NCBI GenBank assembly: GCA_025057155.1
Contig: JANWYD010000013.1
Span: forward strand, 1 to 64,000
Length of the DNA stretch: 64,000 nt
Source: Chloroflexaceae bacterium
Lineage (GTDB): Bacteria > Chloroflexota > Chloroflexia > Chloroflexales > Chloroflexaceae
Direction: 5' to 3'
Shown: piece after piece, positions 50,795 to 56,509 of the stretch
Layout of the letters: each line of letters starts with the position of its first letter
Numbering within the stretch: position 1 is the first letter of the stretch
Position numbers and translations under genes: made by a program
Notes under the pieces: generated by a model
What the model was told of the DNA's origin: nothing
The model's database searches: none
The model's input: the letters and a program-made list of their open reading frames with translations, nothing else

Positions 50795-52192
50795 CTAAGG
50801 ATCGGCTTCTCCAGCACCCCCAAGCATCTCGCGCCAGCGAGCGCACTGCTCGCGCACCCGCTCAGGAGCGGTTCCTCCCAGGCTGGACTTGCCTGCCACG
50901 CTGCGAGTGAAGTCAAAGACCTCGTAGATCTTCGCGTCCAGATCGGGCTGCACGGCCTGGTACTCCGCCAGGGGCAGGCGGCGCAGCGGCACCTGCAACT
51001 CGAGCGCGCGCCGCACCAGACGGCCCACTTTGCCGTGGGCCTCGCGGAAGGGAACGCCGCGCCGCACCAGCTCATCGGCCAGATCGGTGGCCAGCATCGC
51101 ATCGTCGAGGGCGGCAGCCATACGCTCGGGCCGGACCGCCAGGGTCGCCACCGCGGCCGCCGCCACCTGCAAGCCCAGGTCGAGCGTGTCAAAACTGTCG
51201 AAGAAGGGTTCCTTGTCCTCCTGCATGTCCTTGTTATAGGTAAGAGGCAGACCCTTAAGCATGGTCAGCACGCTCACCAGGTTGCCCAGCAAGCGCCCGC
51301 TCTTGCCGCGCAGGAGTTCCATGCTATCAGGATTCTTCTTCTGCGGCATCAGACTTGAGCCGGTGCTGTAGGCGTCATCAAGTTCGACGAATCCAAACTC
51401 GGCGCTGCTGTAGATGATCAGGTCCTCAGCCATGCGGCTGAGGTGCACGCCGGTGAGAGCGAAGTCAAAGAGTATCTCAGCAACGAAATCACGGTCGGAA
51501 ACGGCATCAAGAGAGTTAGCTGAAACGGCGTCAAACTCATCGAGATCCTCGGTAAGGCGTTCGCGCTCAATACCCAGACCGTTGCCGGCGATAGCTCCGG
51601 AGCCCAGGGGCAGGGTGCGGGCGCGGGCAGTGGCGTCGGCCAGGCGTTGACGGTCGCGCTCGAACATCTCCACGTAGGCCAGGCACCAGTGACCAAAGGT
51701 GATCGGCTGGGCGCGCTGAAGGTGGGTATAGCCGGGCATCAGGGTGGCGGCGTGACGTTCGGCCTGTTGCAGCAGGGCGAGTTGCAGGCCCCGCAGGCCG
51801 CGCCGGATACGCTGCGCCGCCCCGATGACGAAGAGTCGGAAAGCCGTCGCCACCTGGTCGTTGCGCGAGCGCCCGGTGTGGAGCCGGAGGGCCGGCTCGC
51901 CGATGAGTTCGTAGAGACGGCGCTCAATGGCGGTATGGATGTCCTCGTCGCCCTCGCGAGGCTCGAAGCGGCCACTCTCGAACTCACGCTGCACCAGGTT
52001 CAGCCCCTGGACCAGGCGCTCATAATCGGACTCGCTGATCAGGCCGGTCTCACGGAGCGCGGTGGCCCAGGCCAGGCTGCCCGTGATGTCGGCCTCGGCC
52101 AGCCGTATGTCGAAGCGGAACGAATCGTTGAAACGGCGCATCATCTCCGCCGTCGGGGCCGCGAAGCGGCCACCCCAGAGTCGGTGTTCCAT
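50795..52192 (-). CDS. argH: Argininosuccinate lyase
   Basis: Last step of arginine synthesis: cleavage of argininosuccinate to arginine and fumarate; cytoplasmic tetramer. The 465-residue protein has normal length. Seen: MEHRLWGGRFAAPT start, DEDIHTAIERRL, GRSRNDQVATAFRLF, MPGYTHLQRAQPITFGHW, and the fumarase/aspartase signature GSSLMPQKKNPDSMELLRGK with the catalytic Ser loop. It is followed by the ArgA-like gene and preceded by argJ, with 211 bases of palindromic repeats between. Confidence 0.97.
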   Translation of the reverse strand: MEHRLWGGRFAAPTAEMMRRFNDSFRFDIRLAEADITGSLAWATALRETGLISESDYERLVQGLNLVQREFESGRFEPREGDEDIHTAIERRLYELIGEPALRLHTGRSRNDQVATAFRLFVIGAAQRIRRGLRGLQLALLQQAERHAATLMPGYTHLQRAQPITFGHWCLAYVEMFERDRQRLADATARARTLPLGSGAIAGNGLGIERERLTEDLDEFDAVSANSLDAVSDRDFVAEILFDFALTGVHLSRMAEDLIIYSSAEFGFVELDDAYSTGSSLMPQKKNPDSMELLRGKSGRLLGNLVSVLTMLKGLPLTYNKDMQEDKEPFFDSFDTLDLGLQVAAAAVATLAVRPERMAAALDDAMLATDLADELVRRGVPFREAHGKVGRLVRRALELQVPLRRLPLAEYQAVQPDLDAKIYEVFDFTRSVAGKSSLGGTAPERVREQCARWREMLGGAGEADP

Positions 52193-52403: not shown

Positions 52404-53627
52404 TTACGTCCGATACTCCGCATTGATCGCCACATACTGCGGGCTGAGATCACAGGTCCAGACGGTTGCGACGCCCTCGCCCAGGCCCAGGTCGGCGTCA
52501 ATGCCGACCTCGGGAACATTGAGCAGGTCACTGGCGGCCCGTTCATCGAAGGGCAGAGGCAGGCCGTTCTCCAGAACGCGCATCCCGCCGAAGTGCAGGA
52601 CAACCCGCGCGGGGTCCACTTCAACGCCGCTGTAGCCAATGGCGCACAGCACGCGGCCCCAGTTGGGATCGGCGCCGTAGAGGGCGGTTTTGACGAGAAG
52701 CGAGCGTGCCACGGCCATGGCAGCCTGCTTCGCCTCGGCATGATTGCGCGCCCCGCGCACGGTGATGGTCACGAAGCGGGTGGCGCCCTCGCCATCGCGC
52801 ACGACGGCGTGAGCCAGTGAGCGACAGACGGCAGTCAGGCCCTCCAGGAAGGCGGCGAAGGCCGGGCCGGCGGGATCGGTGATTGGCGGCGCGGGGGCGG
52901 CGCCATTGGCCAGAACGAGGAGGGTATCGTTGGTGCTGGTATCGCCATCAATGCTGATGCTATTGAAACTGCCCTCGACGGCCTGGCGCAACGCCGCGTC
53001 GAGCAGCGCGGGCGGCACGGCGGCATCGGTGGCGACCACGCTGAGCAGGGTGGCCATGGTGGGATGGATCATCCCCGCACCCTTGGCCATGCCGCCGATG
53101 GTGAACGCCGAACCGTCCGGCAGGGTCACGCGGGCGGCGACGTGCTTGGGGCGCGTATCGGTGGTCATAATCGCCCGGGCGGCCGCCGGTCCATGGGCCG
53201 GGTCGAGGCGTCGGGCGGCGGCGCGGATGCCGGCGAGGACGCGCTCGACCGGCATGGGCACGCCAATGGTGCCTGTGGACATGACGAAGACCGTATCGGC
53301 GGGCAAGCCCAGCGCCGCCTCGGTGGCGCGAGCCATGGCCAGAGCGGCGGCCTCGCCGGCGGGGCCGGTGCAGGCATTGGCGTTCCCGGCGTTGATCACC
53401 ACCGCCCGCAGACCGGCGGGGTTGCGGCGCATCAGAGCCATATCGTAGAGCACCGGGGCCGCCTTGACCCGATTGGTCGTAAACACCGCCGCTGCCGTCG
53501 CCGGACGCTCACTGACCAGCAGAGCCAGGTCGTCGCGGTTGGCGTACTTGATGCCGCACGCAGCCGTCGCCGCCTGCCAGCCGATGGGGCTGGCGGCATG
53601 GCCGTGCTCAAGCCATTCGATGTTCAT
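52404..53627 (-). CDS. argJ: Glutamate N-acetyltransferase/ornithine acetyltransferase
   Basis: ArgJ recycles the acetyl group from N-acetylornithine to glutamate; bifunctional forms also use acetyl-CoA. The 407-residue protein has the autocleavage segment KGAGMIHPTMATLLSV (cut before the Thr of MATLL, giving alpha and beta chains), N-terminal VFTTNRVKAAPV, VINAGNANACTG and MSTGTIGVPMP, and C-terminal GADPNWGRVLCAIGYSG. The neighbouring ArgA-like protein could supply acetylglutamate, so this ArgJ may be monofunctional. Start ATG at 53627 with GGGGGAA upstream. Confidence 0.96.
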   Translation of the reverse strand: MNIEWLEHGHAASPIGWQAATAACGIKYANRDDLALLVSERPATAAAVFTTNRVKAAPVLYDMALMRRNPAGLRAVVINAGNANACTGPAGEAAALAMARATEAALGLPADTVFVMSTGTIGVPMPVERVLAGIRAAARRLDPAHGPAAARAIMTTDTRPKHVAARVTLPDGSAFTIGGMAKGAGMIHPTMATLLSVVATDAAVPPALLDAALRQAVEGSFNSISIDGDTSTNDTLLVLANGAAPAPPITDPAGPAFAAFLEGLTAVCRSLAHAVVRDGEGATRFVTITVRGARNHAEAKQAAMAVARSLLVKTALYGADPNWGRVLCAIGYSGVEVDPARVVLHFGGMRVLENGLPLPFDERAASDLLNVPEVGIDADLGLGEGVATVWTCDLSPQYVAINAEYRT

Positions 53628-53790: not shown

Positions 53791-54504
53791 TTACTCTTCG
53801 GTTGGCACGGGCGAGGCCGGATGCCCGTCGCCGGTCAGTTCGGTATCCTCCCAGCGGAGCGACTCAATCGCGCCGATATCGTGGAGATGCGCAATGTCAT
53901 TGTAGCAATTGAGGCGCCAGAGGCCGCGCCCGCGTCGCTGCACCAGTTCCCAGTGGGTGATGCTGGTGTTGCGAGTGTGAAAATCGGCCGCCGGGACCAC
54001 CATCCCCGGCATGTGGAAGAAGTGAACAAAGGACGCATCAATCACCCCGCCGTGGCAAATGACCACAATAGTTTTGCCGGCGTGCTCGGAGGTGATGCGC
54101 GTAAGGGCCTGAGCGACGCGCAGGGTAAACATAGCCCAGCTCTCACCGCCCGGCGCGATCGGACGCAGCGGAGCATTGGCGAAATCCGGCATGCCGAAGG
54201 TAGTCCAGGCCTCCTGGTTGCTCATCCCGTCGGCCTCGCCGACGCGCAACTCCTGCACCTCATCGTCGAAGATGATCGGCAGGCCCAGGGCCGGACGGAC
54301 GATCTCGGCGGTCTGGCGGGCGCGGGGCAGAGTGCTGGAGATCAGCACATCGGCCTTCAGCTCGCCGCGGGCGAGGCGATCACGCAGGCGTTCGGCCTGC
54401 GCAATGCCACGGGGCGTCAGACCTCGATCACCGCGCATCCCGGCGACGATAGGCTGCACATTGGCCCACGCCTCGCCGTGACGAATGAGGTAGAGATGGG
54501 TCAT
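53791..54504 (-). CDS. Histidine phosphatase superfamily protein
   Basis: A 237-residue phosphoglycerate-mutase-like phosphatase. Catalytic LIRHGEAWAN (RHG, phosphohistidine) at about 6-15, STLPRARQTAEIV with second Arg, EVQELRVGEADGMSN, and VICHGGVIDASF with the second active His. Expected to remove phosphate from a small metabolite; the substrate is unknown. It lies between argG and argJ on the same strand, but nothing in the sequence ties it to arginine synthesis. Confidence 0.9.
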   Translation of the reverse strand: MTHLYLIRHGEAWANVQPIVAGMRGDRGLTPRGIAQAERLRDRLARGELKADVLISSTLPRARQTAEIVRPALGLPIIFDDEVQELRVGEADGMSNQEAWTTFGMPDFANAPLRPIAPGGESWAMFTLRVAQALTRITSEHAGKTIVVICHGGVIDASFVHFFHMPGMVVPAADFHTRNTSITHWELVQRRGRGLWRLNCYNDIAHLHDIGAIESLRWEDTELTGDGHPASPVPTEE

Positions 54505-54819: not shown

Positions 54820-56025
<1,206 letters not shown>

Positions 56026-56205
56026 CGCGCACCTCGCTGTTCACTCCGCGCGAAGCGCCGCGGTCGCGGCGCCCGCAAGACAGGGTTCAAGGTCAGATGT
56101 TTTAGCCTGAGCGTTGCTTCACCCGCTAATACAACCGGTCTGTAGAGCTTGTGGAGATGTAGCGTTGTGAAGGCGGGGCCGGCGGATTGGAAGGCATGCC
56201 TCCAC

Positions 56206-56242
56206 AAAAAGAGGCCAGCCTGCCCGCGGGCAAAGCTGGCCT
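56206..56242 (-). terminator. Intrinsic terminator (attenuator) in the argG leader
   Basis: On the minus strand: AGGCCAGC (56242-56235), a 15-base loop region that itself contains GCCCGCGGGC, the complementary GCTGGCCT (56219-56212), then C and TTTTT (56210-56206). It stands 28 bases after the stop of the arginine-rich reading frame and about 180 bases before argG. Upstream GCTGGTC and GCTGGC segments inside the leader frame could pair with the 5' arm as an antiterminator. Confidence 0.75.
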
Positions 56243-56269
56243 GCTGCCAGAAACGGCGGGCAAGCACGG

Positions 56270-56383
56270 CTAGCCGGGGCGCGGGGCCGGCTGGCGACGG
56301 AAACGGCGACGGTGGCCGCGGGGCGCGCCGCCCCACGCCGCCAGCGCCCGACCTCCAGACCAGCTCTGCGTCACCTGGGCCAT
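56270..56383 (-). CDS. Candidate arginine-rich leader peptide of argG
   Basis: A 37-codon reading frame, ATG at 56383 and TAG at 56272-56270. GGAG lies seven bases before the ATG. Eight of 37 residues are Arg, with the cluster RRRFRR at 25-30 near the end. The promoter is about 40 bases upstream and a terminator follows the stop, the classic order of promoter, leader peptide and attenuator. The peptide itself would have no function; ribosome stalling at Arg codons when arginyl-tRNA is scarce would favour read-through into argG. Arg codons (CGN) are frequent by chance in GC-rich DNA, so comparison with relatives is needed. Confidence 0.6.
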   Translation of the reverse strand: MAQVTQSWSGGRALAAWGGAPRGHRRRFRRQPAPRPG

Positions 56384-56420
56384 GCCTGCGCTCCGTCGTA
56401 TGCATCAGCTTCGCGGCGGC

Positions 56421-56449
56421 AGTATAGCATAGCGCCCCGGCAGCGTCAA
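56421..56449 (-). promoter_or_regulatory. Strong promoter of argG
   Basis: Minus strand TTGACG (56449-56444), 17-base spacer, TATACT (56426-56421) preceded by TGC (extended -10). Expected start near 56413. This is one of the best promoter matches in the window. Confidence 0.8.
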
Positions 56450-56480
56450 CGCGGGATGGTTCGAAACGCGGGCATTGCCC

Positions 56481-56509
56481 TTGCCGTGGCGCCAGACCTC
56501 TGATATACT
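56481..56509 (+). promoter_or_regulatory. Promoter of marR-lon, divergent from argG
   Basis: TTGCCG at 56481-56486, 17-base spacer, TATACT at 56504-56509. An imperfect palindrome just after the -10 (TTAAAGACGTTGATAA, about 56509-56524; outer TTA/TAA and central ACGT match) is a possible self-binding site of the MarR protein. It is 31 bases from the argG -35. Confidence 0.65.

Follow-up and report, generated by a model that had tools for sequence, protein, structure and literature searches.

A candidate arginine-sensing leader-peptide attenuator upstream of argG in Chloroflexota

We suggest that the leader of argG in the window (the whole 64,000-nucleotide stretch of Chloroflexaceae DNA analyzed here, from contig JANWYD010000013.1) is very probably a ribosome-mediated transcription attenuator that senses the supply of arginyl-tRNA. 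It appears to work like an attenuator of the trp or his type, since the main features of this type that can be tested on sequence were found. Comparison with relatives shows a conserved leader with sensor codons matching the pathway, coevolution of the predicted 2:3 and 3:4 pairings and a putative terminator. An earlier note on this DNA had proposed an arginine-sensing leader-peptide transcription attenuator, and this proposal gains support from the conserved core of the leader, the drift of the rest, and the presence of a Lys sister leader before lysine genes. We also consider it likely that several Chloroflexota lineages share a modular attenuator chassis, with a single RNA layout on which Arg, Lys and Gln sensors have been exchanged, which replaces ArgR and the lysine riboswitch, and in which CGU was selected as the arginine-sensing codon. 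Its Arg sensors would then probably stand before argG, the argJ string and argC, its Lys sensors before homocitrate synthase, homoaconitase, lysW and lysX, and its Gln sensors before LysE-like transporters.

Organization of the argG leader

The leader lies on the minus strand at window positions 56449-56204, flanked by argG and a divergent marR-like gene (Table 1). The parts described in the earlier note, from the promoter, GGAG and 37-codon ORF with its eight Arg codons and RRRFRR to the stop, hairpin and TTTTT, were all located at these minus-strand coordinates. The GC-rich hairpin starts about 27 nt 3' of the leader stop and the TTTTT tail lies at 56210-56206. Scanning for consensus sigma-70 promoters gave, on its own, approximately the background number of sites (2 found versus 1.3 expected); an extended -10 (TGnTATAHT) was found upstream of 55 of the 94 related leaders, as against 0.5 in base shuffles. 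The script identified an SD-like start in 51 of the 94 leaders, and the window has an ATG with GGAG. The consensus terminator scan missed the hairpin of the window, which was detected by alignment and folding, and the limits set on stem, loop and tail in the scan are the likely reason. An opposite-facing promoter-like site with an extended -10 (56481-56509, plus strand) adjoins the argG promoter and overlaps the start of the marR-like ORF at 56475.

The genes behind the leader are argG (start 56025), a gene of the histidine phosphatase superfamily, argJ and argH, in this order. The phosphatase gene, located between argG and argJ in the window, is the first labelled gene 3' of an Arg leader at 13 of the 94 loci. 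Several other sites in this genome and its genus match part of the terminator-argG gap (56096-56173), which is apparently an interspersed repeat that makes the gap longer here.

Table 1. Features of the putative attenuator and of the gene string behind it (window coordinates)
Feature	Position	Strand	Basis or remarks
Promoter TTGACG-17-TATACT, extended -10 (TG)	56421..56449	-	Consensus promoter scan
GGAG, ribosome-binding site of leader ORF	56391..56394	-	7 nt 5' of ATG 56383
Leader ORF MAQVTQSWSGGRALAAWGGAPRGHRRRFRRQPAPRPG	56270..56383	-	37 codons, 8 Arg including RRRFRR; C-terminus and Arg run kept, N-terminus variable
Leader stop codon TAG	56272-56270	-	
Sensor cluster RRRFRR (CGT CGC CGT TTC CGT CGC)	56294..56311	-	
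Strand 1 (AGCCGG)	56287..56292	-	Pairing possible with CCGGCT at stop codon
Strand 2, putative antiterminator 5' side, across and behind stop	56260..56283	-	Fold of half-made transcript and coevolution with strand 3
Strand 3 (GCAGGC, GCT, GCC, CGCG)	56225..56244	-	Terminator 5' arm and loop; common to antiterminator and terminator
Predicted intrinsic terminator (3:4), stem AGGCCAGC/GCTGGCCT, then C and TTTTT	56206..56242	-	
argG, argininosuccinate synthase	54820..56025	-	NF001770, E=1.4e-186
Histidine-phosphatase-superfamily gene, same gene string	53791..54504	-	PF00300, E=5e-40
argJ	52404..53627	-	NF003802, E=2.7e-148
argH	50795..52192	-	TIGR00838, E=2.6e-172

Conservation of the leader among relatives

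A DNA search of 61 genomes yielded matches in 23, some of them chance or repeat matches, and the matches in distant genera were mostly to query positions 147-257 (window 56314-56204), a segment running from the Arg cluster through the terminator. In an alignment of 18 leaders, Arg run, stop codon and hairpin are all kept, and the covariance model R1 built from these leaders matched 41 of the 82 genomes of the order, 36 via the Arg leader and 5 solely via the Lys sister. A further model, R2, matched 65 of 158 genomes in the class; all of these belong to this order, and some were matched only weakly, through their Arg leader. Recovery of the core, by DNA similarity as well as by covariance models, exceeds what chance would give. 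The peptides (e.g., MSQSRTKKLQTQRVRTSRTPLRHRFRRQPAMRPG and MSVIIQHCNTYSGLAVCHNRRHRRHSQPVTRSG) have little in common beyond the Arg run and the C-terminus. Across relatives, the Arg codons, the stop, the predicted antiterminator strands and the terminator are conserved and the rest drifts, a pattern in agreement with the earlier proposal.

The set of leaders used below was obtained from 119 rows, 102 of which were kept after the removal of repeats of the same place, weak opposite-strand matches and the second listings of L217 and L222. The short rows L207 and L217 were dropped (100 rows), as were five leaders that did not fit the stop pattern, including L213 and L214, in which a stop lies beside the pattern (95 rows), and L144, which received no terminator score from the script (94 leaders). 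In one genome, G062, an ORF separates two Arg leaders that lie about 1.8 kb from each other (L158:1037-1165 and 2808-2936).

The distribution of the Arg leader before argG is uneven. We found argG in 32 of the 40 genomes searched and read 30 argG loci. Among the loci read, argG lacked a visible Arg leader in four f1 genera, in 8 f3 genomes and in 16 f4 genomes. Several of the f4 genomes have argG behind a carB-like gene (by eye), and a tRNA gene precedes argG in G010, G018, G028 and G021, from three f1 genera; in G019, no leader was seen by eye before argG. An Rfam scan of 19 of the 30 argG loci plus L017 detected tRNAs only. G040 (f2) has an Arg leader, MKCVLRAPRRLCTEPNRSFG, before argG that the genome scans with R1, R2 and R3 missed, and in G059 (f3), the leader located before argG by R1 and R3 has an Arg frame cut short by an early TGA. 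The best argG match in one g9 genome was only 34% identical (G063:C344:21543-22661), and the Arg leader of this genome stands before the phosphatase-argJ string (L124).

Sensor codons and the downstream gene

The 94 loci were labelled by downstream gene with tblastn. Leaders were Arg-dominant at all 34 arginine loci (argG, 21; phosphatase-argJ string, 13) and Lys-dominant at 57 of the 58 lysine or LysE-like loci (homocitrate synthase, 36, including the single tie; homoaconitase, 13; lysW, 2; LysE-like, 7). The remaining two leaders were both Arg-dominant and had no labelled gene behind them. The association between codon type and downstream gene was strong (Fisher p 2e-24, with related sequences counted as independent). 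The 94 loci had been found with models that saw the sensor codons, and we therefore relied both on this gene-label test and on the codon-blind test presented below.

In the 37 Arg leaders, arginine accounts for 172 of the 370 in-frame codons at positions -16 to -7 before the stop, compared with 17 of 370 in each of the other frames of the same codon window and with a shuffle mean of 45.8; at least three Arg codons occur in these positions in all 37 leaders. Further upstream, 11.7% of the codons of this group encode arginine. The corresponding window in the 58 leaders of the Lys group contains 213 Lys codons out of 580. The Arg codon used is predominantly CGT, which makes up 72% of the leader Arg codons versus 13% in the genes behind, being higher in the leader at 33 of 34 loci, and which represents 12% of the Arg codons in seven window genes. 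The earlier note had cautioned that CGN codons are common in GC-rich DNA, so that the cluster alone proves nothing. This worry is largely answered, because the cluster is restricted to one frame and consists mostly of CGT, whereas base composition alone favors CGC. CGU is probably the codon by which arginine is sensed.

The same data bear on the possibility that the leader is a short gene, or a small RNA with its own terminator, lying by chance before argG, with an Arg run that is only an effect of GC content. The lack of conservation of the N-terminal half and the abundance of CGN codons in GC-rich DNA would be expected under this explanation, but Arg codons confined to one frame and mostly CGT instead of the common CGC would not, and neither would the AAG/AAA runs carried by the Lys sister. 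Furthermore, the terminator lies a median of 51 nt before the argG homology, and in the window no promoter was predicted by the consensus scan in the interval from terminator to argG. We consider a chance neighbor of this kind very improbable.

The Lys sister peptides, matched by R1, end like KQVKRSKKP..SG-stop. This leader sits before homocitrate synthase and homoaconitase genes (one representative of each was tested), and a single copy was found in the genome studied here (G000:C11:12742-12873). The Lys sister before lysine genes is an internal control for the putative sensing of arginine. A group of small f4 genomes (g21) has a LysE-like gene, in place of biosynthetic genes, immediately behind the Lys leader (L193, L198, L200, L205, L210, L211 and L221). 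Gln-rich leaders with the same RNA layout were also observed before LysE-like genes (L300-L305, L308, L311-L313, L316 and L335), 8 of these 12 loci lying outside the order; the label is based on a match of the L300 protein to PF01810 and on tblastn matches of the other eleven to the L300 protein. On this reading of the codons, the Gln type would be a third sensor type.

The conserved C-terminus raises the question of whether the leader acts as an arrest peptide, with the nascent chain in the exit tunnel detecting free arginine (or lysine) and the RNA fold being set by arrest close to the stop codon. Arg leaders have Q at -7 in 33 of 37 cases and P at -6 in 28 of 37, and Lys leaders have K at -7 in 47 of 58 and P at -6 in 51 of 58, as such a peptide might require. 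The glycine before the stop in 95 of 95 leaders is uninformative, because the stop pattern required it. However, the conserved C-terminal codons overlap RNA strands 1 and 2 and can be explained by pairing; the sensor residues switch among Arg, Lys and Gln with the downstream gene; and the strong synonymous bias toward CGT would be needless for a peptide sensor. An arrest peptide is therefore an unlikely explanation, and sensing of tRNA charging by the translating ribosome remains our preferred reading.

Terminator and antiterminator

Support for the predicted terminator is strong. The script found a terminator in 94 of the 95 leaders. Over 55 relatives (alignment A5, comprising 55 of the 57 representatives, with L151 and L212 omitted), covariation for 1:2 plus 3:4 amounted to 74 cells changed on both sides, versus 28 in shuffles (0 of 500 shuffles), and all 74 sit in the terminator helix. 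Pairing was also evaluated by a permutation in which strands were swapped between sequences within each group, for 57 representatives with less than 80% identity. None of 2000 permutations matched the self pairing for 2:3 inner (the post-stop GCYTG with CARGC), 2:3 outer (the pre-stop strand with the terminator loop) or 3:4, and the control pair was null (1081/2000). The 1:2 pairing was weak in this test (58/2000); over the 55 relatives aligned, 92.4% of its cells are paired. When all 94 leaders were used, the control pair leaned too (63/2000), indicating that relatedness inflates this version and that the set of 57 representatives is the fair one.

With fixed columns, 83.5% of the 2:3 cells were paired, and slid versions reached at most 49.2%. 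Covariation of 2:3 in fixed columns was weak (23 both-side cells versus 16.5 in shuffles, 80 of 500 of which reached 23), partly because the inner helix slides by one base between groups, as seen for L157. With the ribosome stalled and the transcript half made, the folds pair four or more bases of strand 3 with strand 2 in 93 of 94 leaders, a count made without a shuffled control. In the window, the segments CGCG, GGC, AGC, G and GCTTGC of strand 2 pair with strand 3 in this fold. The GCYTG motif starts 4 nt 3' of the stop in 69 of the 94 leaders.

The earlier note had suggested folding of the two states as a check. The predicted energy of the window leader is -26.0 kcal/mol for the antiterminator (half-made transcript, stalled ribosome) and -28.9 kcal/mol for the terminator (ribosome at the stop), but for the full stretch starting from the stalled state, the lowest-energy fold is neither clean state, so a kinetic argument is needed. 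The antiterminator originally proposed, GCTGGTC inside the frame, had to be abandoned: it can pair with the terminator arm here, but only one of the 37 Arg leaders, that of the window itself, carries the motif 5' of the sensor codons at -16 to -7. A conserved antiterminator formed by the stop-codon region (56283-56260) with the terminator 5' arm and loop is the better-supported prediction.

Searches with a codon-blind model

The covariance model R3 was built from 55 leaders with the sensor codons left out. It matched 69 of the 82 genomes of the order at E 0.05 and, at E 0.01, 55 of 400 genomes of the phylum, 31 in the order and 24 outside. We read 13 of these 24 genomes; the other 11 matched at E 0.0018-0.0071. 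The matches read stood before LysE-like genes (seven), argC (three) and a phosphoesterase-like gene (one, by eye), and the remaining two, G289 and a hairpin, were apparently chance matches. Beyond the order of the window, six of seven genomes were matched in that of G236, for example with MSGRRKTAYPNRKPRRPRKQPDLVSG before argC and MRMSFSTPKRKKMSQPATWSG before a lysW-like gene, and 8 of 47 in that of G310.

Thirty R3 loci were scored by script, 24 of them with the strand-2 motif. Among the loci that had not been used to build the model, at least three Arg codons were found in 5 of 6 leaders before argC and at least three Lys codons in 4 of 5 before lysW/hcs; 9 of 12 leaders at LysE-like R3 loci had at least three Gln codons, and one locus was unlabelled. 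For L301, L311 and L327, the frame taken by the script differs from that chosen by eye, and the counts are given as computed. Among the argC loci, L319 has no Arg run and L323 has no start codon visible in the Arg frame.

A weak R3 match (L314:2511-2607, minus strand, E 8e-6) lies before a gltX-like gene (by eye), with a candidate peptide, MNLIEQCVYLQGPDPRSD, containing Glu/Gln codons, read by eye. The R3 match L306:2541-2636 (minus strand, E 2e-6) has a Pro/Glu-rich peptide, MPMRLPSPPEPEKPDRRSG, also read by eye, and stands before the phosphoesterase-like gene.

Other regulators of arginine and lysine genes

We regard control by a T-box, another riboswitch or ArgR as extremely improbable for this leader. 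T-boxes are said in a passage of PMC1262725 to control arginine genes in other bacteria, and they are common here, with matches in 77 of the 82 genomes at E 0.001 (51 over the gathering score) and four matches elsewhere in the genome studied (best E 1.1e-18). Nevertheless, no Rfam family matched the window at the gathering score, and at a permissive threshold the leader gave nothing better than E 2; the T-box family (RF00230) had no match in the argG leader. The Trp, His, Leu and Thr leader families of Rfam had no matches in the window, nor in the leader at the permissive threshold. ArgR (PF01316) was found in none of the 82 genomes of the order, this genome included (positive in 9 of 14 controls), and the lysine riboswitch was also found in 0 of 82 (positive in 4 of 14 controls). 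T-boxes, other Rfam families and ArgR were accordingly rejected for the argG leader, for lack of a leader match and, for ArgR, of the protein. The attenuator is a candidate for the control of these genes in Chloroflexales, in which neither ArgR nor a lysine riboswitch was found in the 82 genomes.

Proposed mechanism

Under our preferred reading, RNA polymerase would transcribe the leader from its promoter with the ribosome following. With enough charged tRNA-Arg, the ribosome would reach the TAG stop, and its footprint would hide the stop region and the GCUUG of strand 2; from the size of its footprint, a ribosome at a stop would cover a GCYTG located 4 nt behind. With strand 2 masked, strand 3 would pair with strand 4, and the terminator would halt transcription ahead of argG. 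A shortage of arginine would stall the ribosome in the Arg run and leave strand 2 exposed. Free strand 2 and strand 3 would then form a single long, imperfect helix, in the window CGCG, GGC, AGC and GCUUGC with GCAGGC, GCU, GCC and CGCG, so that no terminator would form and argG and the genes behind it would be transcribed. The stalling, the ribosome footprint, the read-through and the co-transcription of the whole string are what we infer from these features.

Comparison with known systems

If true, arginine biosynthesis would be under the control of a classical attenuator here. The sisters with Arg, Lys and Gln codons, built on a single RNA layout, would amount to a natural codon-swap experiment, in which the sensors change with the pathway and the switch stays. 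In theory, a leader uses the codons read by whichever tRNA isoacceptor is the first to lose its charge, and the CGT excess in the leaders offers a test of this isoacceptor-charging theory.

The leader resembles the classical trp, his, leu, thr, ilv and phe attenuators in having a leader ORF with sensor codons, an antiterminator predicted to overlap an intrinsic terminator, and a biosynthetic operon behind. It differs from them in its Arg, Lys or Gln codons, in its occurrence in Chloroflexota, in the position of the antiterminator strand across and behind the stop, and in the use of one layout with different sensors. In Thermus thermophilus, a leader peptide with lysine codons before AAA-pathway lysine genes was reportedly described by Tsubouchi et al. 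in 2005. It resembles the Lys sister described here, albeit from a different phylum; the likeness concerns the sensor codons and the genes. The fungal arginine attenuator peptide is an upstream arrest peptide that answers arginine and acts on translation in eukaryotes; both are arginine-responsive upstream peptides, but the fungal one works by translational arrest.

In the literature searched, which did not extend to most subscription journals, we found no description of a leader-peptide attenuator of arginine biosynthesis, or of any such attenuator in Chloroflexota. The relevant part of a 2013 survey including five Chloroflexi genomes gives the attenuator specificities his, leu, thr and trp (in Rfam) plus ilv and phe (PMC3766115). 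The proposed system differs from the described cases that we found in sensing arginine in such a role, in its phylum, in having an antiterminator that spans the stop, and in exchanging sensors on a common RNA. A related case is the Salmonella speF leader orf34, in which, according to PMC6386406, ribosome pausing at consecutive Arg codons senses arginine, but this leader controls an ornithine decarboxylase via Rho, mRNA decay and RNA structure at the speF ribosome-binding site. The argG leader, unlike orf34, has a predicted intrinsic terminator and stands before an arginine biosynthetic operon.
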